Shown here: piece by piece, positions 8,512 to 60,881 of the stretch | How positions within the stretch are numbered: position 1 is the stretch's first letter | Layout of the letters: each line of letters begins with the position of its first letter | Source: Eutreptiella sp. 'Long Island Sound 2002' | Lineage: Eukaryota > Euglenozoa > Euglenophyceae > Eutreptiales > Eutreptiaceae | DNA length: 64,000 nucleotides | Direction: 5' to 3' | NCBI GenBank assembly: GCA_964036045.1 | Contig: OZ038378.1 | Coordinates: 159,224,576-159,288,575 of the forward strand | The notes under the pieces: model-generated | What the model was told of the DNA's origin: nothing | Seen by the model: only the letters and a program-made list of their open reading frames with translations | Databases searched by the model: none | Made by a program: the position numbers and the translations under genes

Positions 8512-8546
8512 GGGAGCCACGAAAATCGCCCCTCCCCAGGCGATTT
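8509..8546 (+). promoter_or_regulatory. Candidate UAG readthrough signal between gag and pol
   Basis: The gag stop TAG (8509-8511) is followed in the same frame by an uninterrupted pol. Eleven bases downstream is a perfect 8-bp stem, AAATCGCC (8523-8530) with GGCGATTT (8539-8546), around an 8-base loop. The loop bases CTCCCC (8532-8537) can also pair with GGGGAG (8511-8516) right at the stop, so a pseudoknot-like fold is possible. Gammaretroviral gag-pol readthrough likewise uses UAG followed by G and a structure a few bases on. That readthrough happens here is inferred. Confidence 0.65.
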
Positions 8547-32239: not shown

Positions 32240-32272
32240 CGGAGCCCCTGCAGCCAAGGGCCCCAGCTAGGG
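32237..32272 (+). promoter_or_regulatory. Candidate UAG readthrough site of Gypsy-2
   Basis: The gag stop TAG is followed by CGG and an open, same-frame pol. CTAG-N-GGAGCC is shared with the Gypsy-1 stop context (8508-8518) although the elements are otherwise diverged. A stop followed by CGG is a known readthrough-prone context in some RNA viruses. CCCTAG (32234-32239) can pair with CTAGGG (32267-32272). No strong downstream hairpin like that of Gypsy-1 was seen. Confidence 0.5.
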
Positions 32273-34220: not shown

Positions 34221-34241
34221 GGTTTGAGGTTTGAGGTTTGA
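34221..34241 (-). repeat. 3' tail of the LINE, (TCAAACC)3
   Basis: Three tandem GGTTTGA units on the plus strand, i.e. TCAAACC on the element's sense strand, directly abutting the duplication. Short tandem tails instead of poly(A) occur in several LINE clades and guide priming. Confidence 0.85.
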
Positions 34242-35350
34242 TTTTTGCGGGTACTAGACGCCTTTCGGCCCCGGGGGGCCACCTGGTCGGGCCAGGTGAT
34301 ATCCTCCCCACCGGGTCCTAGTGGGGGGCCCTCCAAGACGCACCTCCTGCCTGGTGGCGGAGTCCCCCGGGTTCACAGAGCTCGGAGCCCCGTCCTTCCC
34401 CGGCGTCCCCGTTTCGCCACTCCCCGGTCAGTGCATCAATTCGCAGCCGTGGCCGCGGGCGCTTACCCACTGCGTCGCCCCCCTAATGCGTGGTCGCCCG
34501 GGGCACCGGCGCCGCCGGGCCCGTGCTACTGGCTTGTCGCCAGTGGGACCCCCTTGGGCTGGCGCGGTGGCTGCCTAGCCTAGGGGTTGGGGCGTGGCGC
34601 TGTGCGTCACTACTGCCTTGGCGGGTGCAGTGTCCCGTCTGTGTGTGCGCGGCGCTCGCGGCCGGTTCGGGGGGGTTCGGGCCGGTACCTGGTGTTGTGT
34701 TTCCCCTTCTTCCCCCTTCCCGCCCCGCGTATCCCGCGTTGCGTGTGGCGGGCCGTCCCGTCCGGGTGTCCCTTACCCTCGCTCGCTGGTACGCCATTCC
34801 AGGTGGTCTGTGCGTTCCGCGCGCTCGGTCCGGTTGCCCTTCTGGTGGTCCCCGCGTGTCCTTTTCGTGTGTGTGCGCTCGCGCTCTCGCGGTGTCCGCT
34901 CCCCGCTGGGTGGTGTGGCGCGCGCATCTCGCGTGGTCCCGGCACTGGGCGCTGGTAGGGCCGTTCCATGTGGTCCGTGCCCCTCCGTGTGTCCTGCCCC
35001 GGTCCCGTGCTCCGTCTGGCGTGCTTGGGGGGGGGCGGTCCGGTCCCGGTTCCCCCCTACTTGGCTTGGGGTTGCGGGGGCGGCGGCTGGGCGTCCCCGG
35101 GGGGGTGCCCTCGTCCGCGGGAGTCTCTTACGCCGCTGAGGGGTGTCGTCGGCTATGTATCCTGCCTTGAGGGTGGGGCTGTGCGCCGTCCACGCGCAGT
35201 CCACGCGCACGGGGTCGGGACTGGGGAGGGGGCTGGGTGGGGTGCGTTGGATCGCCGACTGACGTGCACTGGGGTAAGAGGCGGGCAGTAGCACCACCGG
35301 GTCGCCGACTGACTGTAGGGCGGGGGGTCGCTCTGTCTCTTTCCGTCCCT

Positions 35351-36122
35351 CTGCCTTCCCTGGGCAGGCAACAAAGCGGGCGTCACTGGCGTTGCGCCGT
35401 CCATGGGGGGCGTGGCCCCCCATACCACTCCGGTTCGTGTTCACCCAGCCTCTCCGGGTACGATCTGTGCGGCGTCCCTGTGCGCAGGCGTGGGCCCGTT
35501 TGTTCTTCGCGGCCCCCTTGTGGGCCGGCGGCCGGAGCGGGGGGGGCGGGTCACACTCCGGCCCCCCTCTCGGGTGGGGGGGCCCATTCCCCTTGCCTCG
35601 GGGGGGGTGTCGCGCTGCGGCCTCCCCGCTCTCGTTCCGGGCGGCGGCCTGTGGTACCCCTTTCTGGCCCTCCCCTCCGGCGCGCGCGTGCGGTCGGGGC
35701 TGATGTGCCGCCTCGGGGCGGGGGGGGGTGAGGGGCGGCCCGTGGACCGCTCCCCTGGGGGCCCCGGCTGACCTGCAAACCCCCCCTCCTTCCCCTCGGA
35801 GTGGGCTGTGGTCACGGGAGGGTCATGTGGGGCGCGGCCTCCTTCGTGCTCCGTTGTGCGCGTTGCTCCGGCACGCCGGTTTGGGTCCGTGGGGGCAGGT
35901 CCAGCCGCCGCCGCCCTTACCGTGTCGCCGTTCCTCCTGTGGGTGGGGGCGCCCCCCCGGCCCTGGGGGGGCGGAGGGCCGCGCCTGTGGCTCCCCAGCT
36001 GGGGTGGGTGCGGGGGGGGGGGGGGGGGGGGCCACCCCGCCTGCTCCCGGGCCTGTGTGGGAGGGGGGGGGGGGGGGAGTGGGGGGGGGTCCTCCGGTTC
36101 CCTGGCGATGCCCCCTGTCGGC

Positions 36123-36171
<49 letters not shown>

Positions 36172-37140
36172 GGGGGGCGGCTTGGCGGTCCCAGCCCCGG
36201 GGGCCAGCCATCGGCCAGGGGGGTCGCGCCCTTCCCCCGCCCCCCTCTACCGAGTGCCGGATCCTCCCGCAGTCCCTCCCTGGGGCCCCTCATTTCCCGG
36301 CCGTTGCCGCGCGGCGCTGGCCGGCCGGGGGTGGCCGTGAGGGTCAGCGGTCAGTGGTTAGCGGGTTGCGGGGCCGCCTTCCCTGGGTAGGTAACAAAGC
36401 GGGCGTCCCTTGGCGTCGCGCTGTCCATGGGGGGCGTGGCCACCCATACCATTCCGGTTCGCGCCCACCCGGCTTCTCTGGGCACGATCTGCGCGGCGTC
36501 CCGGTGCGCAGGCGCGGGCCCACTTGCTCTTCGCGGCCCCCATTGGAGCCGGCGGCTGGGGCGTCGGGGCGGGTCACACTCCGGCTCCCCTCTCGGGCGG
36601 GGGGGTCCGTCCCTTCAGCCTCGGGGGGTGGGGGCCGGGGCCCCTGCGGCCGGCGGGCCGGCGGGGGGGCGGGGGGGGGGGGGGGGTGTCGCGCCGCGGC
36701 CTCCCTGCTCTCGTTCCAGGCGGCGGCCTGTGGTACTCCTTCCCGGCTCTCTCCGCGTCGCCGGTGCTCTCCCTTCCGGCGCGCGCTTGCGGTCGGGGCT
36801 GAAGTGCCGCCCCGTGGTGGGGGGGGTGAGGGGCGGCCCGTGGACCGCCCCCCTGGGGGCCTCATCTGACTTGACACCCTCCCTCCGTCACCTCGGAGCG
36901 GGCTGTGGTTACGGGAGGGTCATGTGGGGCGCGGCCTCCTTCCTGCTCCGTCGTGCACGTTGGGGGGGGGCGGGGGCGGCATGGCGGCCCCGGTCCCGGG
37001 GGCCAGCCCCTACCGAGAGCTGGATGCCCGCGCAGGCCCTCGCCGGGGCCCTCTCCTCCCCGGCCGTTGCCGCGCGGCGCCGGCCGGCCGGGGGTGGCTG
37101 ATGGTTAGCGGCCAGTGGTTAGCAGGTTGCGGGGCAGCCG
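35351..37140 (-). repeat. Tandem duplication in the LINE 3' UTR
   Basis: Copy A is about 35351-36370 (1,020 bp) and copy B about 36371-37140 (770 bp). Shared landmarks include TAACAAAGCGGGCGT-like and TCCATGGGGGGCGTGGCC blocks and, at the ends, the CCGGCCGTTGCCGCGCGGCG block (about 36297 and 37059). Copy A has about 300 extra bases (about 35865-36163) that end in A40. Copy B lacks them. Confidence 0.8.
36124..36163 (+). repeat. A40 homopolymer (U40 in the LINE RNA)
   Basis: Forty consecutive A on the plus strand followed by 14 G. In the LINE transcript this is C14 followed by U40. Confidence 0.95.
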
Positions 37141-37273
37141 GTTCCTCCCCGCGCTTGGCGCCCCCGCACTCCCTCCCGCGGGTGGCGGCGCATCCCCGCA
37201 CGTCGTGCCGTACCGTGGGGGGGGCGTGGGTCAGGGGGCCCATCCCCCCCTCCCGTGCCCGCCGTCTGGGCCT

Positions 37274-40200
37274 TCACTTGCGCCGCCGCTTGTGTGGGGG
37301 CTGGGGCTGCGGCGGCGGCGGGTTGTGCCGGCGGTAGCGCCAGTGGGCGAGGGCGCTACGCAGAGCCCGGGGGAGCCAGTTGTTGGCGTCCGCATCCGTG
37401 ATGCGGAGCACCGCCCCCCCCTCCAGGAAGGCCGGCCACGTCGGCTCCCTGTCGGGCCACGCCGCCCGGATCACTGACCTGAGGACCCTCTCGTGGTCCC
37501 CTGGTGCCGCCCACCCCCCCGGGGGTGCCTCCCGGTGTCCTCCGTCCCTCCGGAGGAGCACGGCATCGAAGGGCCGGTTCCGCGACCTCCTGGAGGTCCC
37601 CTGGTTGGCCCAGCACAACCACCCGTACACTTCCCCCACCAGAGGGAGGGTCTCCCCCCCCAGCGGGTCCGGGACTGCGCCCCAGTCCACGTTCCACGGC
37701 CGGCTCTCCTCCGCCCCCTGTGCCGGCCCCCCTCGCTGCTCCTGCACCTGCGGCGCCGATGCCACGCCCCGTCCCCCCTCCGCCGAGGCCACCCGCGCCG
37801 GCTCCGCCCTCGGCGCGGGGGGGGCTTGCTGGTGCTGGTGTCGTGGGGGTTGGGGGGGGATGAGCTCGCCGGCGTCAGGGTCGATGTTGTAGAGGTGGTG
37901 GTGGTGGTGGTGGTGGTGGTGGTAGGTGTGGTGTGCCGGCATCTGTTGGATGCCGGGGGGGATGCACCTCACCGGCTGCACTTCCGGCTGCGGGGGTGCC
38001 CCGCCCTCTGCCCCCCTCCCCCCGCCCCGCCCTCCCCCCTGGGCTCCCGTGCCCCGTCCCTCCTGTCCCTTGGGGCCCTTGCCCTTGCCCTTGCCCTTGC
38101 CCTTGGGCCCCTTTCCGGTCCCGTGCCCATGTCGCGGGTCCCGCCTCTCGTCCCCCACACCCCGGCCCGCTCGCTCTCCCATCCCCCCTTGTCCAGCCCC
38201 CTGCGCCTGGGTACCCTGCCCGCGCCCCTGAACACCCTTCCCGTGCCCTGGCCCCTCCCCGACCCCCTGCCCGCGTCGCGGGTCCCGCCTCTCGTCCACC
38301 ACGCCCCGGCCCGCTCGCTCTCCCACCACCCCTCGCTCCGTCCCCTGCACCTGGGCCTCCTGCCCGCGCTCCCGCGCGCCCTTCCCGTGCCCCGACCCCT
38401 CCCCTGCCCCCTGCCTGTCACTCCGTCCGCCGCTCCCCTCCCCCTCGCCGCTGCGCCCTTCCTGGACCACTCGCCGGGCGTCCCGCTGCCTTTGCAGTTG
38501 CGGCAGCGTGACGCCCGGCGGTGAGCGCTCGCGCTTCGGGGGGCGGTCATGCCGCTCCCGCCCCGGGGGGAAGGGCTTGGGGGGGTACGGCTTGGGGGGG
38601 CTGGTGTGGGTGTGGGCGGGGTTGGCGTGGGCGCGGTACTTCTCGCTCTCCCTGCCCACTGCCGCTGCTGCGGCGGCCGCCGGCGAGGCGTCCGCGGCCC
38701 GTGCGGGGTTCTTCCCCCGCTTGCGCGGCGTGCCAGGGGCCGCAGCCCCTCTCGCGCCCTCCGCACTCTCCTTCGCTGCCGCGGCGGCCGCCGACGAGGC
38801 GCCCGTGGCCGCGGTCGCAGACTCTCGCGCATCCTTCTCGGTCTTCGCTGCTGCCGCGGCGGCCGTCGGCGAGGCGCCCACGGCCCGTGCAGGGCCCGTC
38901 GCAACCCCTCTTGCGCCCTGCTTGCTCTCCTGCGCTGCCCCCCTTGCCGGCGGTGTGCCGGGGGCCGCGGCCGGGGCCGCGGCGTGGCTCGCCGCGGTCT
39001 CCGCCTCCTGCGCGTCAGGGCGGGGCGGGGCGGCGGGGCTGGCCGCTTGGGCGGCGGGGGCGGCCGTCTCGGCTGGCCCAGGTTCCCGGGCCGGCAGCGG
39101 CGGTCCGACCACCGCCGCCTCCGCCAGCCTCCGCTCCTCGCGCTCCGCGAGGGTCTCCCCCGTCCACTCTGGGGAGGAGACGGGGGAGCGGGAGCGGGAC
39201 CGGCGGTGGTGGCGGTCGTCCCGCCCGAGGGACCCATCGGAGTCTGCCATTACTGTCACTCTGGTAGGCATGCGTGGTGGCAGGCGCGCCCCTCCCACTA
39301 CCTCCTGGTGCATCAGTGCCGTGTCGTGGGCAGTGCCGTGTGGTGCTCTGCGGGGGGGGGGGGGGGGAGGGGGTGGGGGGCCGGCTGTGGCGTCAGCCCC
39401 GCATGGCCGGGGGTCCGCGGCCATCCACCGGCATTGGGAGGGGAGGCGGGGGAGCCACGCGGCCCACGCGTCGCGCCACAGCTCCCAGTCTGGGACGGGG
39501 CTCAGGGCCCTGGGCCCCCGGGGGTCGTCGAGCGGTGCCGGGGGCAGCCGCACCAGATGGACCCCCGTAACGGCGGTGACCTCCTGTGTGCGCAGGAAGG
39601 TGTGTACTCCGTCCCGCGCCGCGGGCGCCGGGAGGGGGGGGCGGGGTACAGGTGTGGCCCCATAGAGGTGGGTGGGGGTGATCCCCAGGATCCGCCCCGA
39701 GCCCCCGCGGGACGCGACGACGAGGAGGAGGAGGGGGGTGCCAGGGCACTCTTGCCAGAGGACCTGCCCCCTGTGGTGGGCACCCCTGGTCCTGGAGAGG
39801 GGGGGGGACAGGTCTGGGTTAGCCCAGCCGCGGGGCGCGTGCGTCGCCGGTGGGAGGGCGGGGCACCAAGTGGGCTCCCTGGGGAACGCCTCGTAGACGA
39901 CGGCGTACGGGGGGGTAGGCCCGGTGCCGTCATACACCGGGTTGGTCGGCCGGGGGCGGGCGGACGCCTCGCCCGCGCCTTCCACGAACACCGTGACCTC
40001 GCCCACCTCCAGGTCCTCGTCCGGCGGGTGTAGAAGGTGGAGCGCCGCATCCAGCTCGGACACTCCCCCCGGGTACGTGGCCCGCGCCTGGTTCAGGTAC
40101 GGGGCCGCGTCCCCGGGGTAGCGCGTCCTGAGGGCGTGCAGCAGGGCTGGGGCGCTACTGCGGAGGGACATGGCAGACCCCGCTCCCGTCAGCCGGAGGG

Positions 40201-40546
40201 CGTCCCCCATGGACAGGGGCCGGCCCGACCGATTGGACTCGCGCCACTCCATCCAGTGCCCGTAGAGGGCCGCTTCCGGGCTGATGAGCCCCGGCCGGAC
40301 GGCGTTCACGATCCGGTGCATTGCCGGGAGCAACGTAGGGGCTCCCGCTCCGTTCAGGGCGCGGACGGCCGGGAGGGCGGTCTCGTTGAGGAAGGCCCTC
40401 GCACTGCCCTCCAGGTCGCACCGTGCGGCAGCGTGCGCTCCTTTTGCCTCCGCCACCGCGTCCGCCACCAGGCCCCGGACGGCCGCCTCCTGCGCTCTGC
40501 GGCGGGCCCTGGCGTGCCCCGGCCCATCCCCCCGTCGGCGTGGCAT
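37274..40546 (-). CDS. LINE ORF3: basic, low-complexity, putative RNA-binding protein
   Basis: 1,090 codons from ATG (40546-40544). It lies in the same frame as ORF2, 13 codons after ORF2's TAA. The N-terminal third (to about residue 400) is ordered and Ala/Arg/Pro/Leu-rich. Then come an SR-like segment (RSRSRSP), a long Ala/Pro/Lys region, three related about-35-residue Gly/Arg/Gln repeats with RRDPR, a GKGKGKG tract, nine histidines (GTG repeats near 37900) and a final ordered part with Trp and Arg (to 37274), ending KRRRK. No catalytic motif is recognised. Position downstream of the RT ORF is unusual, since LINE nucleic-acid chaperones are normally ORF1. The ACC-ATG-CC context is acceptable; internal entry, reinitiation or splicing could express it (CCCTTTGCAG just upstream resembles a 3' splice site). 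Confidence 0.7.
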   Translation of the reverse strand: MPRRRGDGPGHARARRRAQEAAVRGLVADAVAEAKGAHAAARCDLEGSARAFLNETALPAVRALNGAGAPTLLPAMHRIVNAVRPGLISPEAALYGHWMEWRESNRSGRPLSMGDALRLTGAGSAMSLRSSAPALLHALRTRYPGDAAPYLNQARATYPGGVSELDAALHLLHPPDEDLEVGEVTVFVEGAGEASARPRPTNPVYDGTGPTPPYAVVYEAFPREPTWCPALPPATHAPRGWANPDLSPPLSRTRGAHHRGQVLWQECPGTPLLLLVVASRGGSGRILGITPTHLYGATPVPRPPLPAPAARDGVHTFLRTQEVTAVTGVHLVRLPPAPLDDPRGPRALSPVPDWELWRDAWAAWLPRLPSQCRWMAADPRPCGADATAGPPPPPPPPPRRAPHGTAHDTALMHQEVVGGARLPPRMPTRVTVMADSDGSLGRDDRHHRRSRSRSPVSSPEWTGETLAEREERRLAEAAVVGPPLPAREPGPAETAAPAAQAASPAAPPRPDAQEAETAASHAAAPAAAPGTPPARGAAQESKQGARGVATGPARAVGASPTAAAAAAKTEKDARESATAATGASSAAAAAAKESAEGARGAAAPGTPRKRGKNPARAADASPAAAAAAAVGRESEKYRAHANPAHTHTSPPKPYPPKPFPPGRERHDRPPKRERSPPGVTLPQLQRQRDARRVVQEGRSGEGEGSGGRSDRQGAGEGSGHGKGARERGQEAQVQGTERGVVGERAGRGVVDERRDPRRGQGVGEGPGHGKGVQGRGQGTQAQGAGQGGMGERAGRGVGDERRDPRHGHGTGKGPKGKGKGKGKGPKGQEGRGTGAQGGGRGGGRGAEGGAPPQPEVQPVRCIPPGIQQMPAHHTYHHHHHHHHHLYNIDPDAGELIPPQPPRHQHQQAPPAPRAEPARVASAEGGRGVASAPQVQEQRGGPAQGAEESRPWNVDWGAVPDPLGGETLPLVGEVYGWLCWANQGTSRRSRNRPFDAVLLRRDGGHREAPPGGWAAPGDHERVLRSVIRAAWPDREPTWPAFLEGGAVLRITDADANNWLPRALRSALAHWRYRRHNPPPPQPQPPHKRRRK

Positions 40547-40585
40547 GGTGCTGCGGGCTCTGCAAAGGGCGGCGGCGGGTGGGGG

Positions 40586-43500
40586 TTAGGGGGCGAACAC
40601 GTGCGACAGGTGCGCAATGGATGTGGGGTCCCGCAGGTGCACGTGGATCCATAGAAGGGCAGCGCCCGCGGGGCCCGCCTGTTCGTGTGAGGGGGTGTGT
40701 GCCCCCTCGATGCGCCGGCGCAAGGCCTCCTCCTCTGTGCGCCTGCGCGGACCTGCGGGAGGTTCGGGCCAGGGGCACGCGGCTACCTGGGTGCACCGCT
40801 CGCACCTGTTGGCGCCTGTCGCTGCTGCGGAGGACACCGTGTCACACTCTCCGCAGAGTCGGCAGGTGTGCGGGAGGTGGGAGGGCGGCGACCAAGGGTC
40901 GAGATGGCGGAGCCAGAGGTCGTCCCACCTCTGTCGGAGGGGGTCCCGGATCTCCAGCAAGCGGGCGCGGACGCGGCGCCGGTAGTCCTTGCCAAGCGTC
41001 TTCCGCTGGACCTCCTGCCACGTGTCGCCGGGGAGGATCCCGTGGTCGTGGAAGGCGGCGATGAGGTCGTCCCACGACGGGCGGGGGTGCCCCTGGTGGG
41101 GGCTCGCCATGTACACGTGGCGCCCGGTGAGGTGGGGCGTCAGCGCGTCCCATTGGCACCCGTTCGCGGTGTCCCTGTGGAGGAGGGCCAGCAGGGTGCC
41201 GTCCGCGACCGCTTCCCACCCCACTCGCAGCCCTTCGCAGCCGTCCAGCTCCTGGCGCAGCGCGGCTGCGATACCGGTGGGGAACATGAGGAGCAAGGGC
41301 CCCTGTGTGTCGCCCAGCCGGGACAGGGCGTCGTCGTATACCGGCCCCCCCGCTTTGAAGTGCGCCACGGTGAGTTGGGTGGCCCCGTCCTCTGGGGGTT
41401 GCCACCGGACGGTGGCCGCAGCGTGTCCCCACGTGCGTATCTCCGTGGCCCGGAGCACGTTGGCAGTGTGAAGGACGATGCGGGGCGGGACGGGCGTCCT
41501 GACGAGTGAGGATACGTCCCCAGCCCATCCCGTTTGCGGCCCTGGGGCCGCCTGCAGCCATCCCCCTGTCGCCGCGTCCCACGGGTGGTCAGGTCCCGCC
41601 CCTCGGACCATGGTGGGTCTCGGCCGGGTGTCCGGCCCCCACCCCCGGAGCGGGATGGCGGCGTATCGTTGCGCAGGGGTCTCCGGGGCGCGCGTGGCGG
41701 CGCACCACCGGCCCCACTCCCGCGCCCACTCCTCTCCCACGATGCGCGCCTCCCATGCGGTCATGGAGCCGCGCCCGATGATCCACGGTGGGAAAAGGGC
41801 GTCTTGCAGGTGCCTCGAGAACCCCCCCGGCAGGTCCTGATACGGGTGGGGGCCCTCTTGGAGTGGGCACTCCAGAGTGCCATTCACAACACGGAGGGAG
41901 GCTACGAAGTCCTTGTCAGGGCGCGGGGGAGGGGGAGGGTGGTCGCCCTCCGCCGCAGTGAGCCACCGGTGCGCCCGGGCCGCCGCGCTTAGGGGGTCGC
42001 GGAGGAGTTGCTCCAGCCGGTGGTTGCGAAGCTCCCACGCGAAGTCCCCTAGCCGGAGCATGTGGTGGAGGAAGTCGTCCACCGAGGTCCCTCCCGGCGG
42101 GTCGTATCGGGTTATGGCGCGGAGCTGCGCCTCCGCATCCTCGGGCACCAGTCCGGAGCAGAACACCTCTGTCCACGTGGCGCCTGCGGAGCGCCACGAG
42201 GCCACCCACAGGGCCTTGTCCCCAGGTGGGAGGTGGCGGGCCGCCTCGTGCACCGCCTGGCGGTAGTGGGGCCAGAGGAGCCGCGAGTGGGTGCAGCCCA
42301 CGTGCATGTGCACCGGGGTCTCTTCCGGGCCGCCGCAGAAAAGGCACGGCTGCGGGACGATGGCGACGCCGGAGAGCCGCTCCTTCCGGACGCGGAGCCT
42401 GCGCTGCACCGGCGTGTGGCCGTCCCGGGCCCGCAGCGCCCGGCGGTTGGTGGCCGCCGCGGTGAGGTCCCGGGCGTGGACGTAGGCCGTGGCGTGGGCC
42501 GCGCCCAGAGGTGTGTGTCCCCGGTGCGTCAGCGCATGGTCCGTCTGCGCCCGTTGTGCGACCTCGCCGAGCACCCGCATCGTGGGGGGCCGTAGATCGA
42601 GATGGCCGTCACGGCCGGCGACGATGAGTTGGGCGTGGCCAGGGTCCGGGGGCGTGTTCTGCAAGACGGTGTCCTGGGACGCCGCCCAGTCCGCCTTGTG
42701 CAGTAGGGCGTCACTGTGGTGCGAGGTGGCTCGGACGTACCAGACCGGGTGCCCGGCGTGTTGCCCCCGCGCGCACAGGCCGTCCCGGAGCCACCTCAGG
42801 GGCATCTGGTTGACCACCTTCGCTGCGCCCGCGGGGACCCCCGTGGTTCGCTCGCGATCTGCGTGCCGTAGGAGGTGGAGGATGACCTCGGCGTCCACCG
42901 TGTGGACCCATGGTCTGTGTGCACCGTAATGTAGGGGGAGGGAGGCGGCCACCCCCTCTCCGTCAGGCACCGTGCCCGAGATGGCCACCGCCCACGTGCG
43001 GGTGAGGTCGGCGGCGAGAGCGACGCTGGTGGCGTGTTTGCAGGGTCCGCCCCCGGATGCGTCAGAGGAGGTGTGTCCCCAGGCCTCCGGGATCCAGTAG
43101 TATCCGGTGGGGCTGAGCCACCCCGCGTTGAGGTCGGTGGAGTGCCACCGGACGTCGGGGTGGCTGTGGGTCAGTTGGTCCATGCTCAGCGCCCTGGTGT
43201 CGCCTGGGCTGATCGCCGGGTGGTCGTGCAGCCGGATCTCCGCTCCGGCGATGGTGCTTGCCCAGGACCGTAGCGCCGTCACATGTTCCTTGAGCCACGC
43301 CGGGCCTCCGCGCTGGTGTACCACCAAGTGTCCTGTGTCCCCCGGACGGTCCTCCAGCGCGTGCACCGCCATGTGTGGGTCGTGCGGCACCCCCGTAGCC
43401 ACCAGTAGGGCGGTGCCACGGGGGAGTCCACGGGGTTCGGGCTGGCCTGCCCCCACTTGCACTATCACCCACTCGGCCCGGAGCTGCGCTTGTCCCGCCG

Positions 43501-47281: not shown

Positions 47282-47284
47282 TCA
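47254..47284 (-). promoter_or_regulatory. In-frame UGA between LINE ORF1 and ORF2
   Basis: TGA (47284-47282) followed by CTC, then an open frame in the same phase. No ATG lies before the catalytic Asn motif of the endonuclease. A small hairpin GGGC-GAC-GCCC lies at 47264-47254. A CTG in good context (47254-47252) and a GTG (47218) are possible non-AUG starts. UGA readthrough is the simplest reading, but a nonsense mutation of this copy is possible. Confidence 0.55.
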
Positions 47285-50200
47285 GCTATCCCGCGTCGGC
47301 ATCGCCGCCGGGTTCGCTGGTGCCGCCAGGGCATCTGGGTGCGCCGCATCCGCTGAGCCCGTTCCCAGCGGGGCCCACAAGGGGGCCCGGGGGACCGGGG
47401 GAGTCAGGGGGGCCAGGGGGGCCAGCCCCGCGGGGATGGACATGGGCCCTGGTGGGGCCGCACCGCCGGCCCCCGGGGCCGCTCCGGGTGCCTCCTCACC
47501 TCCATCTGCGTGGTCGGCTGCCTGGGGCGGGGGGCGCCGGGTGTACGGGGCGTGCCACGGGGACCTCCGTGCTCTCCCCTGCAGGATGTTGGCGGCCGCC
47601 TCCTTGCCGTCCGCCGGGGCCGCAGCGTGCACCGCGTGCCACGCCAGGTGTTCCAGCATCGCCCCGCTGGTGTAGTACTTGTCCGCACACAGGGGGCATT
47701 TCGTCGGCTCCGTGGCCCCTCGCGCCGGGGGGAGCTGCACCGACTTCCGAATGGCGCCCTCCGCCGCTGGTTCGAAGGGCAGGTTGGCCAGCGGCACCGT
47801 GTGTGGTGCCAGCGTGCGGCCCGGGGCCGCCGCATCGAGGGCTCGCGTTGCGGGCGCGGGCCCGAGGCCTCGGATGGCATCGCGCTGCACGTCTGCTTGC
47901 AGCCACCTTTGCCAGTGCGTGGAGCCGATTTGGCGGTCGGGTTTGCTCCTCCACCGCAGGTCGTGGAGAGCCTGTAGCCAGTGGTACACCGTGGTCGGGA
48001 CCGCCAGCTGGAGCTCCAGGTCGGCGGGGTGCGCCGCTGCCGGCCACACTCCCGGCCTCGCCGCCCGGGCGTTGTCCTTCAGCCTGACCTGGAGCAGGAG
48101 GGCGTGGTGTTCGCCCTCCCGCAGCGCCTTGATGATCATGCGTGTGCAGTCTGCCACGCGGATCACGGCTTCGGGCCCCGGCAGGCGTTCAGGGTCGCAG
48201 ACGACGACGTGCGCGTCCGCCGGGCTGAACATGCAGACCACCCACTGTGGGTTCTGCTGCCCCCGTTGGGCCACCGCCAGGGTAGCCGCTGGGCGGGCGT
48301 GCGTGATGGGCCCCGCGTGGAGGTCCGGGACGTCCGTGGCCCTGATGGCGTCTCCCTGCCACGCGGCCCGTAGATGCTCCTCCTGGTCGGGGCTCCACAC
48401 CAGTGCGGGGGGGTTGACCCACCCCGGTTCCTGCCTCTTGTTGGGGGCGCTGACCGTGTGCAGCAGGACCGCCAGTGGCCAGGGGTCCGCCGACATGTAG
48501 TAGGCCTGGGTGGGCCCCTGTCGCCAGTCGACGTGGGACAGGGGCGGGAATGCCCCTTGCCTAGCGGTGCTGTGCCAGACCGCCCATCGGCCTCCGGCCA
48601 GGACGTGCGACCGGTACCCTCCGGCGTGGCCGTGTACGATGGCTTGGTATCCTGCCGTCTGCAGTACCAGCGCCTCCCCCTGCTTAGGCCCGGGCGGGGG
48701 TGCGCCATCGCCCGCACCCCAGACGCGGGTGCGCCCGCGGAGTGTGGCATGCCACGGGTCTGATGCATCGCGCTGGGGCCCTTGTATGCACCCCGCAATT
48801 TGCGCCGGGCCGTGGTGGTGGACGAAGCTCTCCCCGCCGTCTGCTAGCAAAGCCGCCGCGACGACGTATAGTTGCTCCGCCGTGAGGGGCGCCGTCGGCT
48901 CGTGTGTCGCGGCCGGCCGTCGGGGCCGCGTGTCGCGGCAGGGGACGTGGGGCAGCAGCTGCGCCGGCCACGCCGCCACTGGACCCATGGTGACGGCCGC
49001 GACCGCGGACGCCAGCGCCGTGCGGTCCGTGGGTCTGTACTGCCGGAGTCCCGTGGTATCTCGGGTGAGGTGCCTGCAGGCTGCCATCCAGGCCACCGCT
49101 CCGCAGTTCGTGCAGTCTGGTTCGGTACCGCTCGCATCGTCGCCTCCCCACTGCTGTACCGTGGTGGCGGTGTCGAGCGGGGGGCCCCGCTGTAGCGCCT
49201 CCGGGCCCTGCCCCGGCGGGAGGGCGGGCGGGATTGGCTGTGGGTAGTTTTGCGCGCCCCGGCGCTCCGGGTGCGTGTGGTACGGGTCCTGCCGGCGGTG
49301 TTCTGGGGCTGCCCGTGGCTGGAAGAGGAGCTGGTGCAGGTACCAGTGGCCCTCCGCGGCGGACGGATTGCGGAGCGTTAGCCACTGTTCCACCACGCCT
49401 CCTGGGTGCGCGGCCTCGACGCGGCGCTGCAACCCCAGGCGGCCTAGGCGGTTGGACGTGCCCGCGGGCGGGATGTGTGCCTGCGGGTAGAGCACCCGCA
49501 GCGGCTCCAGCGCCAGGTCCAGCACTTCATCGTTGAGCTGCTTCGTGAGGGCCGACGCCCTGTGTAGGGCGTGGAGGACCCCGGGTGTGGGGGCCGTGAG
49601 CTGTTCGAGCACCGGTCCCGGCGGGTACCGCGTACCCGGGTTCGTCAGCCACTCCCTGGTGTGGCTCAGTACGGCCTTCGGCAGGTCCCTTGTAAAGGCG
49701 TGCCGGGGGGCCAATGAGGGGACCATCCGTAGGAGGCGGTGGCACGCCGGCGGCGACCGCATGGGCTGTGGGGCGGCCGCCGTGATCCACCTGCACGCCG
49801 TGCCGGGCACGATCGCCCCCCATTCCACGGTCCCCATGCCCTCGGCATGAATCAGCGCCTGGCCTTGGACCATGGGGAAATAGGGGCTCGAGCGCCCCTT
49901 CCCTTCCCTCCACCGTACCCAGGCAGCCCCCGCCTGCAGGCTGCGGAGCAGGGCCACGCCGGGGAGGGGCGGCTGCGGGAAGGCCCCCTTGACGGCCTGG
50001 GTGGCGTGGGCCAAGGTGCCCATTGGTAAGTACCACAACGGGAGGGTCCAGGGGCCCGGCAGTGGTTGCGCCACCCCTGCGTCCCATCGCCACTCGGAGT
50101 CTGGCGGGGCGGCCGGGACCGTGCCCGTCTGCAGGAAGTGGCGTGCATACTTGTCGGGGTGCCGTTGGAGGGTTGCCGCGAGGCTGAGCCCCTCCGCTGC

Positions 50201-50977
50201 TGGTGCCACCGGGAGGCCGCCCCGGGGCCTGCGCCAGGGGTATTCCTGGTCGGCCGGCCAGGTGTGGAGGTCCCGGGCGATGTCCTCCGCGGTCCCTGTG
50301 GGGGCGTCCTCTGGTGCCAGGTGCCACATGACGGCGAGCACCGCCCATGTGGAAAAGGGCCACGCCCGCGGGGGGGTGTACACCTGGATGGTCCACTGTG
50401 GGCACGCCCGCCGCACGCGGGACACGTGGAGCACCCCTCGGGCCATGTCCGCCGCCAGGACCAGCACCATTCCCGAGGGATCCACAATGATCCCCTCTGC
50501 GGGTCCACCGTGGCGGCCCCGGGTGTGCAGGGCCACCGCCGCCTGTCCCGCGTGGGTGACGCGGTCGACGGCCTCCTGGATGTTCACGCTGCCGCGCGCG
50601 GTCTCATCCAGGATCCAGCCCTGCGTCACCCCGTAGCGTAGGGCGGCGTGTGCGGCCGCGGGTTTCACCTCGGGCAACGCTCCGTCGTCGGCATCGGGCT
50701 GGGGGTGCTGTCTGGGGCACCAGCCTTCGCCGGTGCAATGGCCCCGTTTCCACGCGGGGCAAATCGCGGATACGCTGCCCGCCGGCGGCGCAGGTTCCGC
50801 GGGCGCGCCCCCCGCGGGGGGCTCCGGTAATGCCTCCAGGTCGGAGTCTGTGCCCGCGTCCTCTTGTGGGGGGTCTCCTTCGCCGTCTCTGAGTCCCAGC
50901 GCCCTGATGACCTCGTGTGCTTCGTCCAGCGTCGGAGATCGGGGGCGTGTCTTGCGTGGTGCCGCGGGTTCCGCCAT
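47282..50977 (-). CDS. LINE ORF1: zinc-finger protein with ubiquitin-protease-like region
   Basis: 1,231 codons from ATG at 50977-50975 (MAEPAAPRK) to TGA. The frame is open further up to 51529, but that part is 212-bp repeat. A CCCH finger, C-x7-C-x5-C-x3-H, lies near residues 73-91 (about 50761-50705), and a classic C2H2 finger, CPLC...H-x3-H, near residue 1095 (about 47693-47630). Around residue 620 (about 49118-49066), NCGAVAWMAAC resembles the USP/UCH cysteine box with Ala where the nucleophile should be. At about 48652-48600, YQAIVHGHAGGYRSHV resembles the USP histidine box with GGY in place of GHY. The region may be an inactive deubiquitinase fold. Zinc fingers suggest RNA or DNA binding in the retrotransposition particle. 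Other fold assignments are possible. Confidence 0.75.
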   Translation of the reverse strand: MAEPAAPRKTRPRSPTLDEAHEVIRALGLRDGEGDPPQEDAGTDSDLEALPEPPAGGAPAEPAPPAGSVSAICPAWKRGHCTGEGWCPRQHPQPDADDGALPEVKPAAAHAALRYGVTQGWILDETARGSVNIQEAVDRVTHAGQAAVALHTRGRHGGPAEGIIVDPSGMVLVLAADMARGVLHVSRVRRACPQWTIQVYTPPRAWPFSTWAVLAVMWHLAPEDAPTGTAEDIARDLHTWPADQEYPWRRPRGGLPVAPAAEGLSLAATLQRHPDKYARHFLQTGTVPAAPPDSEWRWDAGVAQPLPGPWTLPLWYLPMGTLAHATQAVKGAFPQPPLPGVALLRSLQAGAAWVRWREGKGRSSPYFPMVQGQALIHAEGMGTVEWGAIVPGTACRWITAAAPQPMRSPPACHRLLRMVPSLAPRHAFTRDLPKAVLSHTREWLTNPGTRYPPGPVLEQLTAPTPGVLHALHRASALTKQLNDEVLDLALEPLRVLYPQAHIPPAGTSNRLGRLGLQRRVEAAHPGGVVEQWLTLRNPSAAEGHWYLHQLLFQPRAAPEHRRQDPYHTHPERRGAQNYPQPIPPALPPGQGPEALQRGPPLDTATTVQQWGGDDASGTEPDCTNCGAVAWMAACRHLTRDTTGLRQYRPTDRTALASAVAAVTMGPVAAWPAQLLPHVPCRDTRPRRPAATHEPTAPLTAEQLYVVAAALLADGGESFVHHHGPAQIAGCIQGPQRDASDPWHATLRGRTRVWGAGDGAPPPGPKQGEALVLQTAGYQAIVHGHAGGYRSHVLAGGRWAVWHSTARQGAFPPLSHVDWRQGPTQAYYMSADPWPLAVLLHTVSAPNKRQEPGWVNPPALVWSPDQEEHLRAAWQGDAIRATDVPDLHAGPITHARPAATLAVAQRGQQNPQWVVCMFSPADAHVVVCDPERLPGPEAVIRVADCTRMIIKALREGEHHALLLQVRLKDNARAARPGVWPAAAHPADLELQLAVPTTVYHWLQALHDLRWRSKPDRQIGSTHWQRWLQADVQRDAIRGLGPAPATRALDAAAPGRTLAPHTVPLANLPFEPAAEGAIRKSVQLPPARGATEPTKCPLCADKYYTSGAMLEHLAWHAVHAAAPADGKEAAANILQGRARRSPWHAPYTRRPPPQAADHADGGEEAPGAAPGAGGAAPPGPMSIPAGLAPLAPLTPPVPRAPLWAPLGTGSADAAHPDALAAPANPAAMPTRDS

Positions 50978-51044
50978 TGCTATGTCGCTGTGTCTAAGAG
51001 CAGGGGGCGGGGTGCGGATGTCCCGTGGCTGGTGCGTTGGTGCG

Positions 51045-54000
51045 TTGGTGCGTTGCTCGCTGTGGGGGTGGCGGGAGGGCGCCCCCGGGGGGGGTGCCTT
51101 CCACCGTTGTGAGGGGTGCCTGGTGTCAGGCGCCGTCCCTTCCCCGGCCGCTCGTCCTCCGGAGCGTGCAGCCAGGGTTCCGCGACCCGCGTGTCCCGGG
51201 TGCGGTCGATGCGGGCATGTGGACCCAGCACCAGCCCCACAGCGTGCGCCCTTGCGGGCCGGCGTTGCTCGCTGTGGGGGTGGCGGAAGGGCGTCCCCGG
51301 GGGGGTGCCTTCCACCGTTGTGAGGGGCGCCTGGTGTCAGGCGCTGTCCCTCCCCCGGCCGCGCTCGTCCTCCGTAGCGTGCAGCCAGGGTTCCGCGACC
51401 CGTGTGTCCCGGGCGCGGTCGATGCGGGCGTGTGGACCCAGCACCGGTCCCACAGTGTGCGCCCTCGCGGGCCGACGCTGCTCGCTGTGGGGCTGGCGGA
51501 ATGGCGTCCCCGGGGGGGGTGCTTTCCACCGTTGTGAGGGGCGCCTGGTGTCAGGCGCTGTCCCTTCCCTGGCCGCTCGTCCTCCGGAGCGCGCAGCCAG
51601 GGTTCCGCGACCCGCGTGTCCCGGGCGCGGTCGATGTGGGCGTGTGGACCCAGTACCGGTCCCACGGCGTGCGCCCTTGCGGGCCGGCGTTGTTCGCCGT
51701 GGGGGTGGCGGAAGGGCGTCCCCGGGGGGGGCTGCCTTCCACCGTTGTGAGGGGCGTCTGGTGTCAGGCACTGTCCCTTCCTCGGCCGCTCGTCCTCCGG
51801 AGCGTGCAACCAGGTTCCGCGACCCGCGTGTCCCGGGCGCGGTCGATGCGGGCAGTGGACCCGGCACCGGCCCCACAGCGTGCGCCCTTGCGGGCCGACG
51901 CTGCTCGCTGTGGGGGTGGCGGAAGGGCGTCCCCGGGGGGGGTGCCTTCCACCGTTGTGAGGGGCGCCTGGCGTCAGGCGCTGTCCCTCCCCCGGCCGCT
52001 CGTCCTCCGGAGCGTGCGGCCAGGGTTCCGCGACCCGTGTGTCCCGGGTGCGGTCGGTGCGGGCGTGTGGACCCAGCACCGGCCCCACAGCGTGCGCCCT
52101 TGTGGGCTGGCGTTGCTCGCTGTGGGGCTGGCGGAAGGGCGTCCCCGGGGGGGTGCCTTCCACCGTTGTGAGGGGCGCCTGGTGTCAGGCGCTGCCCCTC
52201 CTCCGGCCGCTCGTCCTCCGGAGCGTGCAGCCAGGGCTCCGTGACCCGCGTGTCCCGGGTGCGGTCGATGCGGGCGTGTGGACCCAGCACCGGCCTCACA
52301 GCGTGCGCCCTTGCGGGCCGGCGTTGCTCGCTGTGGGGGTGGCGGGAGGGCGTCCCCGGGGGGGGTGCCTTCCACCGTTGTGAGGGGCGCCTGGTGTCAG
52401 GCGCTGTCCCTCCCCCGGCCGCTCGTCCTCCGGAGCGTGCAGCCAGGGTTCCGCGACCCGCGTGTCCCGGGCGCGGTCGGTGCGGGCGTGTGGACCCAGC
52501 ACCGGCCCCACAGCGTGCGCCCTTGCGGGCCGGCGTTGCTCGCTGTGGGGGTGGTGGAGGGGCGCCCCCGGGGGGGGTGCCTGCCACCGTTGTGAGGGGC
52601 GCCTGGCGTCAGGCGCTGTCCCTCCCCCGGCCGCTCGTCCTTTGGAGCGCGCAGCCGGGGTTCTGCGACCCGTGTGTCCCGGGTGCGGTCGATGCGGGCG
52701 TGTGGACCCAGCACCGGCCCCGCAGCGTGCGCCCTTGCGGGCCGCCGTTGCTCGCTGTGGGGGTGGCGGAAGGGCGTCCCCGGGGGGGGTGCCTTCCACC
52801 GTTGTGAGGGGCGCCTGGTGTCAGGCGCTGCCCCTTCCCCGGCCGCTCGTCCTCCGGAGCGTGCAGCCAGGGTTCCGCGACCCGTGTGTCCCGGGTGCGG
52901 TCGGTGCGGGCGTGTGGACCCAGCACCGGCCCCACAGCGTGCGCCCTTGTGGGCTGGCGTTGCTCGCTGTGGGGCTGGCGGAAGGGCGTCCCCGGGGGGG
53001 TGCCTTCCACCGTTGTGAGGGGCGCCTGGTGTCAGGCGCTGTCCCTCTCCCGGCCGCTCGTCCCCTGGAGCGTGCAGCCAGGGCTCCGCGACCCGTGTGT
53101 CCCGGGCGCGGTTGATGTAGGCATGTGGACCCAGCACCAGCCCCACAGCGTGCGCCCTTGCGGGCCGGCGTTGCTCGCTGTGGGGGTGGCGGAAGGGCGT
53201 CCCCGGGGGGGTTGCCTTCCGCCGTTGTGAGGGGCGCCTGGTGTCAGGCGCTGTCCCTCCCCCGGCCGCTCGTCCTCCGGAGCGTGCAGCTAGGGTTCCG
53301 CGACCCGCGTGTCCCGGGTGCGGTCGATGCGGGCGTGTGGACCCAGCACCGGCCCCACAGCGTGCGCCCTTGCGGGCTGGCGTTGCTCGCTATGGGGGTG
53401 GCGGAAGGGCGTCCCCGGGGGGGGTGCCTTCCACCGTTGTGAGGGGCGCCTGGTGTCAGGCGCTGTCACTCCCCCGGCCGCCCGTCCTCCGGAGCGTGCA
53501 GCCAGGGTTCCGCGACCCGTGTGTCCCGGGTGCGGTCGATGTGGGCGTGTGGACCCAGCTCCGGCCCCACAGCGTGCGCCCTTGCGGGCCGGCGTTGCTC
53601 GCTGTGGGGGCGGCAGAAGGGCGTCCCCGGGGGGGGGTGCCTTCTACCGTCGTGAGGGGCGCCTGGTGTCAGGCGCTGTCCCTCCCCCGGCTGCTCGTCC
53701 TCCGGAGCGCGCAGCCAGGGTTCCGCGACCCGTGTGTCCCGGGTGCGGTCGATGCGGGCGTGTGGACCCAGCACCAGCCCCACAGCGTGCGCCCTTGCGG
53801 GCCGGCGTTGCTCGCTGTGGGGGTGGCGGAAGGGCGTCCCCGGGGGGGGTGCCTTCCACCGTCGTGAGGGGCGCCTGGTGTCAGGCGCTGCCCCTCCCCC
53901 GGCCGCTCGTCCTCCGGAGCGTGCAGCCAGGGTTCCGCGACCCGTGTGTCCCGGGTGCGGTCGATGCGGGCGTGTGGACCCAGCACCGGCCCCACAGCGT

Positions 54001-54950
54001 GCGCCCTTGCGGGCCGGCGTTGCTCGCTGTGGGGGTGGCGGAAGGGCGTCCCCGGGGGGGGCTGCCTTCCACCGTTGTGAGGGGCGCCTGGTGTCAGGCG
54101 CTGTCCCTCCCCCGGCTGCTCGTCCTCCGGAGCGCGCAGCCAGGGTTCCGCGACCCGTGCGTCCCGGGTGCGGTCGATGCGGGCGTGTGGACCCAGCACC
54201 GGCCCCACAGCGTGCGCCCTTGCGGGCCGGCGTTGCTCGCTGTGGGGGTGGCGGAAGGGCGTCCCCGGGGGGGGTGCCTTCCACCGTTGTGAGGGGCGCC
54301 TGGTGTCAGGCGCTGCCCCTCCCCCGGCCGCTCGTCCTCCGGAGCGTGCAGCCAGGGTTCCGCGACCCGTGTGTCCCGGGTGCGGTCGATGCGGGCGTGT
54401 GGACCCAGCATCGGCCCCACAGCGTGCGCCCTTGCGGGCCGGCGTTGCTCGCTGTGGGGGTGGCGGAAGGGCGTCCCCGGGGGGGGCTGCCTTCCACCGT
54501 TGTGAGGGGCGCTTGGTGCCAGGCGCTGTCCCTCCCCCGGCCGCTCGTCTTCCGGAGCGTGCAGCCAGGGTTCCGCGACCCGTGTGTCCCGGGTGCGGTC
54601 GATGCGGGCGTGTGGACCCAGCACCGGCCCCACAGCGTGCGCCCTTGCGGGCCGGCGTTGCTCGCTGTGGGGGTGGCGGAAGGGCGTCCCCGGGGGGGGC
54701 TGCCTTCCACCGTTGTGAGGGGCGCCTGGTGCCAGGCGCTGTCCCTCCCCCGGCTGCCCGTCCTCCGGAGCGTGCAGCCAGGGTTCCGCGACCCGCGTGT
54801 CCCGGGTGCGGTCGGTGTGGGCGTGGGGGCCCGGCACCGGCCCCACAGCGTGCGCCCTTGCGGGCCGGCGTTGCTCGCTGTGGGGGTGGCGGAAAGGCGT
54901 CCCCGGGGGGGGTGCCTTCCACCATGGTGAGGGGCGCTTGGGGTCAGGCG
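51045..54950 (-). repeat. About 18-19 tandem 212-bp monomers, 5' region of the LINE
   Basis: The landmark CCTTCCACCGTTGTGAGGGG recurs about every 212 bp, 19 times between 51100 and 54915, with few substitutions and indels. Because 212 is not divisible by 3 and stops are rare at this GC content, long frames run through in several phases. They are artefacts. The array lies just upstream of ORF1 in the sense direction, the place of the promoter monomers of mouse L1, which are about the same size. Confidence 0.95.
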
Positions 54951-56049
54951 CTGTCCCTCTCCCGTCTGCCCGCCCACTGCCGGGTGGGTTGCCGGGGTTC
55001 GTTGGGTGTGTGCGGTGTGTGTGGTGCCTGTGCCGTGCGTGTCGTGGTGTGTGGTGCTGCTCTTTCCTTGGTCCCCCGGTGCTCCCCTCTCCGGTGTCTC
55101 GGTGCGGTGTTGTGCTCGCCGTGTGCCCGCCGTGTCCCCTCCTCTGTGTGCACCCCTTGCTCGTTCGCTGGCTTCCCCTTGTTCCTTTCGCGGCTTCGTT
55201 GCTCTTTACCCTTTCCTCTACCCCTCTCCCTAGCATGCACTTTTTCCCTGCCTCCGCTTTGTTGTGTGTCTCTGTCTTTTTTCTTGTCGGCCCGGGCTTC
55301 CTCTTTTGAACCTGCGTAGGGAGAGAAGGGTGCGTAAGCAAACGTGCGGCGGCGGCGGTTTTGTCGCGGCACGGCACCTCGAGCTGGCCGGTACGTCATG
55401 CGACATTCATGTGCGACCGGCTTGCGTGTAGGTTTATCGCCCCATTTGCTCCCGGCTTGTTTCCACCCCCCTTTGGTCGCTACCTGTTCCCGTCGCCCGT
55501 TCCGCGTGCGCGGCGTGACATTCAACATACCTGCCTCTTTCCCCACTACCTTGACGTGTTCTAGTCCTCCCGCCTTGTCGGGCGTTCGCTTATGTGTGAC
55601 GACGGCACGACGCAATACTTGCCTAAGCGTCTAAGACAACCCTACTTTAACGCCCGGACGCCCGGACGACACGAGCATACGCTTCTCTTCGGGACCTGTG
55701 AGGATAGGACACGGGTGCGTGCACGTGTGTTTGTTGGGACCCGGCACTCGCCGGCGCTATGCCATTTGTGTGTTTGCTCTTCCTATCCCCCTCCGTGGCT
55801 ACTTGTGTGTTCTAACCCACGCAACTCCGCGGTTGGCGACGTGGCACGACATGGTAACATACTTGCGTTCTTGGTGGCGGTGTGTGGCTTGTCTACTATT
55901 CGTTTGCATGCGGCGGCATACCTTTTGTTCCCTTTCGCTCCCCTTCGCCTCCTACATAAGCGGGCGTGTGGGTGGGCGGTGGGCACGTCTCGGTTACGTA
56001 GCGTAGCGTGGCAACATACTTGGACCCCACTAGTCACGTGTGTATGCTT

Positions 56050-56088
<39 letters not shown>

Positions 56089-57010
56089 TTTTTTGTTGTG
56101 TTGTGCTTTACCTCGGTGGTCTTTTTGTTCCTCCCTGTTTGTCCCTTCATACCTTGCCGCTCGTCCGCGGCGGTGTTGGCCTTGCGGCGTTCCGGGCATG
56201 CGCGTGCGGGCATACCTTTCTTTCCCTATGCGAGTGGGGGTGAGCATAGGCGTTCTTTCGGTGCTACCTCTTGTTGGTTTTCCTTGCCGGTGCGGTTTTC
56301 GTTGCGCTTTTCGTGGCGGCGCACTTTGGCGTTGCTTATCACTTTACTTGTTTTGCGCTTGTTACGGCGTTATGCACACAACATATGGCACATATGCACA
56401 TAACATACTTGCTTTCCGGCGGCCGGTGGCGTTGTTGTTGCTTGTGTGTATTTTTCATGCACGACATTCAACATACTTGGGTACATGTGCGGCTTCTTGC
56501 TCTTTTTGTTGTGATCCCCTTCGCGCGTATTTCCTACATGAGTGGGCTTGCATTGCTTGGTCGTGTACTTGGTATATCTCCACCGTGGTGCGGTTCGTTA
56601 CCTATGTTTTCTCCTTGTCTACCTCTTTCCGCGTTGTGTTTGTTTCGTTGGTTTTTCGCGGTGCGTGGCACATAACATACTTGCTTGTCGGCGGCCGGTG
56701 GCGTTGTTGTTGTCTATGTGTGGGTTGTTTTGGGGCGCGCACAAGTCCCTAGCGCCTAGGGCACGCACTTTGCTAGGTGGTTTGGGGCAAGCAACGCTCA
56801 GTTTCTTCGCCGTCGCGACTCTATTGTTCGTCTTTTTCGGTGAGTGTCCTATATTTTGCGACCTCGCCAAACAGCGGCGTAAAATTGTTGGGGGGGTTTC
56901 TGAGGTCGGAAAAGACGATTTTTCGCTTTATTTCTGCTGGCGGTGCGTCTTTTTCTCGTAATTTTATTTTTCTTCTGCTGCGATCGCGCGACACCACGAT
57001 TCAGAACATT
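54951..57010 (-). other. 5' leader of the giant LINE
   Basis: About 2 kb between the insertion's 5' end (57010) and the monomer array, less GC-rich than the ORFs. It holds a T36 tract on the plus strand (56052-56087; A36 in the RNA) and five copies of AACATACTTG (plus strand: 55856, 56013, 56402, 56470, 56674). Two of these (56402 and 56674) sit in a longer duplicated block containing CGGCGGCCGGTGGCGTTGTT. No convincing ORF. Confidence 0.7.
56052..56087 (+). repeat. T36 homopolymer (A36 in the LINE RNA)
   Basis: Thirty-six consecutive T on the plus strand in the LINE leader, complementary in RNA to the U40 of the 3' UTR. Confidence 0.95.
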
Positions 57011-57024
57011 GGCCATGGAGAAGA
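57011..57024. repeat. 14-bp target duplication of the giant LINE (right)
   Basis: Exact copy of 34207-34220. Gypsy-2 pol continues directly from here. Confidence 0.93.
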
Positions 57025-60000: not shown

Positions 60001-60026
60001 GGGCGATTGCAGCCAGGGGTGCCTGA
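57011..60026 (+). pseudogene. pol: Gypsy-2 Pol, C-terminal part (RT, RNase H, integrase, chromodomain)
   Basis: The open frame begins artificially in LINE sequence at 56943; true pol starts at 57011. Reverse transcriptase has WRLVVDYR and FVDD (57423-57434). RNase H has RTDAS (about 57918), CTDHQSL and ADCLSRW. Integrase has an HHCC finger (HH...CSVC, about 58707-58830) and the Asp, Asp, Glu triad (AMDVF, SDRGPQF and RAEVAGR, with 35 residues between the last two). A chromodomain (about 59790-59950; VEKILAQR, WRGYG, DTWEP) precedes TGA at 60024. Catalytic residues are intact, but the part is cut off from its gag and protease by the 22.8-kb LINE. It is close in layout to Gypsy-1 but clearly a different family. 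Confidence 0.93.
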
Positions 60027-60760: not shown

Positions 60761-60881
60761 GGAAACGGACCACAAACGGTGCAAAATAGGGCCAAAAACA
60801 CCTCAAATGTTCATCGCTCATCCCATTCTTATGCACATACTATCATATTTTATGTAGTTCTTTGGCGTATTTCGCTTTTTT

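Follow-up and report, generated by a model that had tools for sequence, protein, structure and literature searches.

A 22.8-kb APE-type LINE with three open reading frames inserted in a chromovirus pol gene of Eutreptiella

In a 64,000-nt stretch of the genome of the euglenophyte Eutreptiella sp. 'Long Island Sound 2002' (assembly GCA_964036045.1, contig OZ038378.1, positions 159,224,576–159,288,575; the whole stretch is hereafter the window), the 22,790-bp segment at window positions 34221–57010 is a real, single and unusually long interspersed nuclear element (LINE) of the apurinic/apyrimidinic endonuclease (APE) type, with new features. Its length is several times that usual for a LINE. The verdict of a single LINE follows from the segment's own boundaries and from part junctions that recur at other loci. 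The segment has a LINE-type reverse transcriptase (RT), an APE domain N-terminal to the RT, a target-site duplication (TSD) without long terminal repeats (LTRs) and a simple-repeat tail. A first-pass annotation had described one long LINE with a monomer array, three large open reading frames (ORFs) and a trailer of about 3 kb, and each of these parts was located (Table 1).

The boundaries are defined by a perfect 14-bp TSD, GGCCATGGAGAAGA, which occurs exactly twice in the window, once on either side of the segment, and agrees to the base with the duplication annotated earlier. In a chance control, 302 of 200,000 random pairs of 40-nt windows, drawn from the same 64-kb window with microsatellites left in, had some 14-mer in common. 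Removal in silico of the segment and one TSD copy leaves a pol ORF uninterrupted across the site, with the empty-site join reading in frame as ...RGERKEAMEK followed by ILRDFIQRGWLEPCHSEW...; the earlier statement that excision puts this pol back in phase thus holds. The interrupted gene belongs to a chromodomain Gypsy element (a chromovirus), here Gypsy-2: its ORF 56904–60026 matches RVT_1, RT_RNaseH and Chromo above the Pfam cut-offs and an integrase core below the cut-off. Self-comparison revealed no LTR pair at the segment ends. At the minus-strand end of the segment, directly before the TSD, stands the TCAAACC tail in three repeats, as had been reported.

In sense orientation (minus strand) the element consists of a leader, the monomer array, 73 bp, ORF1, ORF2, 39 nt, ORF3, the trailer and the tail. 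All three ORFs lie on the minus strand in one frame and have a third-position G+C of 85%; in 1-kb bins, G+C is 68–78% in the element body and 50–60% in the leader. Rfam and tRNA scans of the 64-kb window gave no matches.

Table 1. Coordinates of the element and its flanking duplication within the window, listed in sense order.
Feature	Position	Strand	Details
TSD copy, element 5′ side	57011..57024		exact 14-mer, 2 copies in window
5′ leader, 2,046 nt	54965..57010	-	sense strand A-rich; from composition and repeats
Monomer array, 18.5 copies of 212 bp	51050..54964	-	TRF score 6850, 93% matches
ORF1, 1,231 aa	47282..50977	-	ATG at 50977, TGA at 47282-47284
In-frame TGA, predicted readthrough site	47282..47284	-	ORF1/ORF2 border; next base C
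ORF2, 2,231 codons	40586..47281	-	ORF1 frame; first AUG is codon 51; TAA at 40586-40588
Putative RNase H	42689..43063	-	D1407, E1442, D1463, H1521, D1531 of ORF2
ORF3, 1,090 aa	37274..40546	-	ATG at 40546, TGA at 37274-37276
3′ trailer, about 3.0 kb	34242..37273	-	internal duplication; possible hairpin near end
3′ tail, (TCAAACC)3	34221..34241	-	from sequence, present copy only
TSD copy, element 3′ side	34207..34220		exact 14-mer, 2 copies in window

Other copies were sought in three protein searches, each of which scored only the 7,986–7,991 candidates with the most words in common; the RT region, ORF1 and ORF3 gave 22, 107 and 54 matches, respectively. We assume that the ENA protein clusters among them come mostly from the window's own genome. 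Counted as member sequences, not loci, the clusters include two of full-length ORF1 that match it in start, end and length of 1,231 aa (P0023, 439 members; P0024, 177 members), one of full-length ORF2 (P0001, 2,181 aa from the codon-51 AUG, 438 members, 99% identical) and, closest to ORF3 in length, P0130 (1,104 aa, 171 members). Identity of 99% (P0001, P0025 and P0030) suggests recent activity. At least 10 of the 107 ORF1 matches carry array-coded residues ahead of ORF1 (P0035, P0042, P0054, P0055, P0073, P0083, P0105, P0111, P0124 and P0126), and in P0124 the inner leader (54965–55290), array and ORF1 are joined in one match. ORF1 and ORF2 run together within a single protein in seven cases (P0044, P0060, P0092, P0115, P0118, P0125 and P0128), and ORF2 is joined to ORF3 in eight (P0011, P0157, P0163, P0169, P0173, P0176, P0177 and P0180). 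The ORF3–trailer junction recurs in P0172 (60% over 45 residues, directly past ORF3) and P0153 (49–55%). The same junctions at other loci indicate that the parts were not assembled here by chance. Together with the lack of a third TSD copy, they bear out the earlier view that the segment entered as one unit, and they contradict a separate origin or an assembly join for the array and the ORFs, with less force in the case of the trailer.

ORF2 encodes the catalytic domains. Pfam identified an APE-type endonuclease (Exo_endo_phos, PF03372, 1.4e-9, residues 13–269) and, C-terminal to it, an RT (RVT_1, PF00078, 1.6e-22, residues 638–881) with its YIDD box at residue 805. A profile of 10 ORF2 rows including the window matched 10 distinct PDB sequences up to E 0.01, led by 8gh6 ('Reverse transcriptase-like protein', 4.6e-20) and LINE-1 ORF2p (9.1e-20); chains named R2 followed from 5.8e-13 and aligned only around the RT. 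Further downstream, after the putative RNase H region, lies a CCHC finger read by eye, for which Pfam gave a zf-RVT match below its cut-off (residues 1626–1670, E 0.059); beyond the finger, ORF2 extends for about 570 residues without an assigned fold.

The order APE-RT-RNase H on the minus strand had been proposed from the sequence; its first two members stand on Pfam matches, and the support for the third is at the level of motifs. LINE RNases H conserve a D-E-D-H/R-D set (PMC4640811). A D-E-D-H-D set with spacings of 35-21-58-10 is invariant in six rows from two families (the window, P0001, P0002 and P0003, and P0005 and P0007 of a second family); P0004, P0006, P0008 and P0009 were excluded as frameshifted or as ending before or within the region. 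This spacing pattern occurs once among the invariant ORF2 columns, and was contained in 14 of 5000 column shuffles, or 2 of 5000 when only residues 1001–1750 were shuffled, figures that flatter the motif, since the spacing ranges were set after the residues had been seen. No RNase H match was found on ORF2 in Pfam; for the region itself, Pfam up to E 10 with four rows gave only GGDEF_2 (0.034), in one row, and a four-row profile matched nothing in PDB up to E 10. An AlphaFold model from seven sequences had a predicted local distance difference test (pLDDT) value of 31 and lent no fold support. On its conserved residues, ORF2 likely carries an RNase H after the RT.

ORF1 and ORF2 adjoin in one frame with zero bases between them, a UGA alone separating the two. 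Among the 20 matches that reach the end of ORF1, six are out of frame (P0044, P0092, P0106, P0119, P0125 and P0128) and one is divergent (P0112). Eleven of the remaining 13 stop at the same TGA, as established by alignment to the last residue (P0023, P0024, P0029, P0043 and P0049) or by eye over the last 26 residues (P0028, P0032, P0071, P0093, P0109 and P0110); the other two (P0060 and P0115) have a sense codon. Retention of the stop in 11 of 13 matches indicates that the UGA is probably ancestral and has been kept. On ORF2, the match to the endonuclease starts at residue 13, with the motif LSWNLRNG, upstream of the first AUG, so that initiation at codon 51 would yield an endonuclease without its first motif. 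Given the shared frame, the kept UGA and the start of the endonuclease before the AUG, readthrough is the simplest route, and ORF2 is probably made by UGA readthrough as an ORF1–ORF2 fusion. Use of UGA as a sense codon was ruled out: the 4,568 codons contain 127 TGG and 2 TGA, the latter at the ends of ORF1 and ORF3.

A less probable but serious alternative takes the UGA as the plain end of ORF1, with ORF2 expressed from a non-AUG start, by reinitiation or from an mRNA that is spliced or shorter. Folding of the RNA 3′ of the UGA revealed no stimulatory structure (z 0.21), which counts against readthrough, and P0002 has an AUG at ORF2 codon 5, showing that variants can have a start close by. 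Against a plain stop stand the common frame with nothing between the ORFs, the position of LSWNLRNG ahead of the first AUG of the window copy, and the two matches that replace the stop by a sense codon and stay in frame; we therefore favour readthrough. Both Gypsy elements of the window likewise have two long ORFs in one frame with a single TAG between them (8509 and 32237). Their upstream ORFs are gag-like by position only, and ORF 5455–8511 has no Pfam match. Stop-codon readthrough may thus be widespread among the mobile elements of this genome.

The remaining proteins are less easily assigned. ORF1 contains, on a by-eye reading, CCCH-like (residues 73–91) and C2H2-like (residues 1094–1114) zinc motifs; in the PDB, only RBM22 matched, at E 2.4 over the CCCH stretch, which is no evidence by itself. 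The idea of a USP/papain-like protease, raised by eye from NCGAVAWM and GYQAIVHGHAGGYRSHV, was dropped, since the usual positions of the catalytic His and Asp did not fit and Pfam, PDB and AlphaFold gave no support. ORF3 begins 39 nt past the ORF2 TAA in the same frame; its N-terminal 390 or so residues are conserved, and the rest is basic, RS/KG-rich, of low complexity and variable in length.

The non-coding parts are rich in repeats. Nine monomers of the array, excised by exact anchor, have a mean identity of 95%, each compared with the next in the list, and position and repeat structure make the array the likely promoter. The leader holds scattered AGTATGTT-type repeats, an A-rich tract (56052–56094) and a 54-bp repeat with copies 91% identical at a spacing of 272 bp; shorter repeats, for example TAACATACTTGC, flank the A-rich tract on both sides. 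These flanking repeats and the absence of a third TSD copy give indirect support for the outer leader as part of the unit. In the trailer, an imperfect 1.0–1.1-kb duplication spans 35353–37139 (pieces 81–91% identical, spacing 1,023–1,099 bp), and trailer-coded stretches lie beside ORF3 or ORF1 in P0110, P0111, P0149, P0153, P0162 and P0172. We do not claim a strong 3′ hairpin for RT recognition: its z is -1.58, and 13 of 200 shuffles (70 nt) or 67 of 200 (120 nt) fold equally well.

The RT tree of 21 rows, most of whose other rows are long branches (a program warning) and which lacked a curated LINE clade set, joins the window with P0001–P0004, with the P0005 family as sister; these ten rows form their own branch (100/100, length 1.15). 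The RT phylogeny proposed at first thus yielded a distinct branch shared with a second family, and with long outgroups it did not reach a clade placement. That second family, P0005 (1,689 aa, 1,283 members, 46% identity over the RT region), is the nearest kin; it is grouped by RT, and giant size is shown for the window element only. The nearest relatives from named organisms, a pseudoscorpion (P0013) and Haematococcus lacustris (P0014), share 28–29% identity over 54–58% of the RT query. The latter, alike in RT, is LINE-like and differs in also having a Josephin deubiquitinase domain (1.4e-10) and, below threshold, a PHD finger, neither of which was detected in the window element. The ENA protein P0017 (3,704 aa) is likewise LINE-like and very long: its endonuclease and RT lie in a single uninterrupted frame, and some 860 residues precede the endonuclease. 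Scans of viral contigs and prokaryote genome contigs found no relatives.

Comparison with known LINEs shows both kinship and novelty. RNase H-bearing APE-type LINEs comprise the I group, plant L1, Proto1 and Dualen/RandI in the part of the literature covered (PMC4640811). With them the window element shares APE-RT, the putative D-E-D-H-D set, the CCHC finger, a TSD and a repeat tail; it differs in its 22.8 kb, third ORF, extension of about 570 residues, a UGA as the sole divide between the in-frame ORF1 and ORF2, and a putative RNase H without a database match. Dualen/RandI elements carry both APE and a restriction-like endonuclease. The window element shows APE, and Pfam and PDB searches gave no match to a restriction-like endonuclease, but its C-terminal extension has no assigned fold and the R2 chains aligned only around the RT. 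Mouse L1 is not known to have an ORF3 of comparable kind. Like the window element, it has tandem monomers 5′ of ORF1 and a short non-monomer gap, which is 73 bp here, and its youngest subfamilies carry three to four monomers on average (PMC9022269). The window element, in contrast, has 18.5 monomers and a 2-kb leader 5′ of the array. The telomeric LINEs HeT-A and TART have long untranslated regions. They are likewise unusually long, at six to fourteen kb on average, and build chromosome ends, whereas the window element, at 1.6 times the upper figure, is internal with a TSD (PMC5537684). No LINE of such length appeared among the top-ranked results of word searches of the open-licence literature.

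Several observations weigh against a single giant LINE as described here. From end to end the element is known from one locus, on which the length claim rests; the leader beyond 55290 (55291–57010) and the last 106 bp (34221–34326) have no independent copy among the protein matches, and the cluster sizes are subject to the counting noted above. Matches that link ORF3 with the trailer are weak (49–60% over 45–175 residues), and many matches are frameshifted or shortened, pointing to decay of many copies. The ORF2 clusters P0002 (5 members) and P0003 (10 members) lose the frame near residue 2065, so that an intact ORF2 end is not common to all clusters. ORF1 has no credible Pfam family among 38 rows searched (stray matches to three families, one row each, E 0.12–0.5) and an AlphaFold pLDDT of 32, and ORF3 matches no known Pfam family.

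A reading that we consider unlikely starts from a shorter, ordinary ORF1–ORF2 LINE that grew at this site through nested insertion, template switching or a false join in the assembly, so that the leader, array, ORF3 or trailer would be foreign. It would account for the sharp change in G+C at about 55 kb, and the A-rich tract of the leader can be read as the poly(A) end of another element; the leader repeats, however, lie on both sides of that tract. Rearranged copies do exist, with the trailer beside ORF1 or ORF3 in antisense (P0110, P0149 and P0162) or sense (P0111) orientation, and the antisense fusions suggest inversions or copies inserted into one another. Foreign insertions find no trace in the TSD, which has only two copies in the window, or at nine internal boundary points, where shared 11-mers occur only at the two array ends and in a GGC-rich run, and the joins seen elsewhere (at least ten for array/ORF1, one for leader/array/ORF1, seven for ORF1/ORF2, eight for ORF2/ORF3 and two for ORF3/trailer) argue for one unit. 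A telomere-type composite resembling the rotifer Terminons, elements of a different kind that reach 40 kb (PMC5537684), is highly improbable, its great length and several ORFs notwithstanding, and is largely refuted by the TSD of an internal insertion and the APE-type endonuclease; the RT matches LINE-type chains. Terminon and Penelope-like elements are marked by a GIY-YIG endonuclease and an Athena-type RT; in the three ORFs, Pfam matches up to E 1 comprised APE, RVT_1 and the sub-threshold zf-RVT, with no GIY-YIG domain among them.

Other mobile and repeated sequences share the window. Gypsy-2 (27926–34220 plus 57025–60026) has an in-frame TAG at 32237 and a TGA at 33779, and no LTR pair for it was found within the 64-kb window. 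Gypsy-1 is a complete-looking chromodomain Gypsy with 532-bp LTRs (5117–5648 and 15341–15872, 99.6% identical) and ORFs 5455–8511 and 8512–13695 in one frame around a TAG; only 3 of 200 shuffles fold as well as the RNA 3′ of this TAG (z -2.2). Elsewhere, ORF1 or ORF3 sequence of the LINE lies beside Gypsy-type sequence: P0122 matches Gypsy-1 LTR regions in antisense, and P0159 and P0179 match Gypsy pol, perhaps marking further LINE/Gypsy nesting. Just past the Gypsy-2 ORF lies an AT-rich satellite-like array (60874–62752, period about 186 bp), and a second array of 22-bp units occupies 63459–63735.

The structure of the insertion allows us to propose how a single giant LINE came to lie here: very probably, target-primed reverse transcription (TPRT) of a single full-length RNA placed it in the chromovirus pol. 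Transcription would begin either in the leader or, as in mouse L1, within the monomers of the 212-bp array, and the ORF1 protein would bind the element RNA. Occasional ribosomal readthrough of the UGA would supply small amounts of endonuclease and RT as an ORF1–ORF2 fusion, and ribosomes that reinitiate 39 nt past the ORF2 stop would translate ORF3, whose basic, low-complexity product may coat the RNA. The endonuclease would nick the plus strand after GGCCATGGAGAAGA, releasing an end that would serve as primer on the UCAAACC repeats of the tail; the last two bases of this primer, GA, can pair with UC in another repeat unit. From there the RT would copy the entire 22.8 kb.

If one TPRT event does copy 22.8 kb, the known reach of LINE reverse transcription is extended, and limits on LINE length become testable in a natural system. 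The order ORF1-UGA-ORF2 suggests that a LINE uses readthrough in the manner of retroviral gag/pol. Both ORF3 and the ORF2 C-terminal extension are of large size, common to other copies and without known relatives. It is quite possible, though we stop short of calling it probable, that the element founds a lineage of giant LINEs exceeding 20 kb, in keeping with the new group suggested earlier. Such elements would combine a monomer promoter with a readthrough cassette (ORF1-UGA-ORF2) and an RNA-coating ORF3, and would be the longest self-copying LINEs described, with an RT that copies more than 22 kb per TPRT event.

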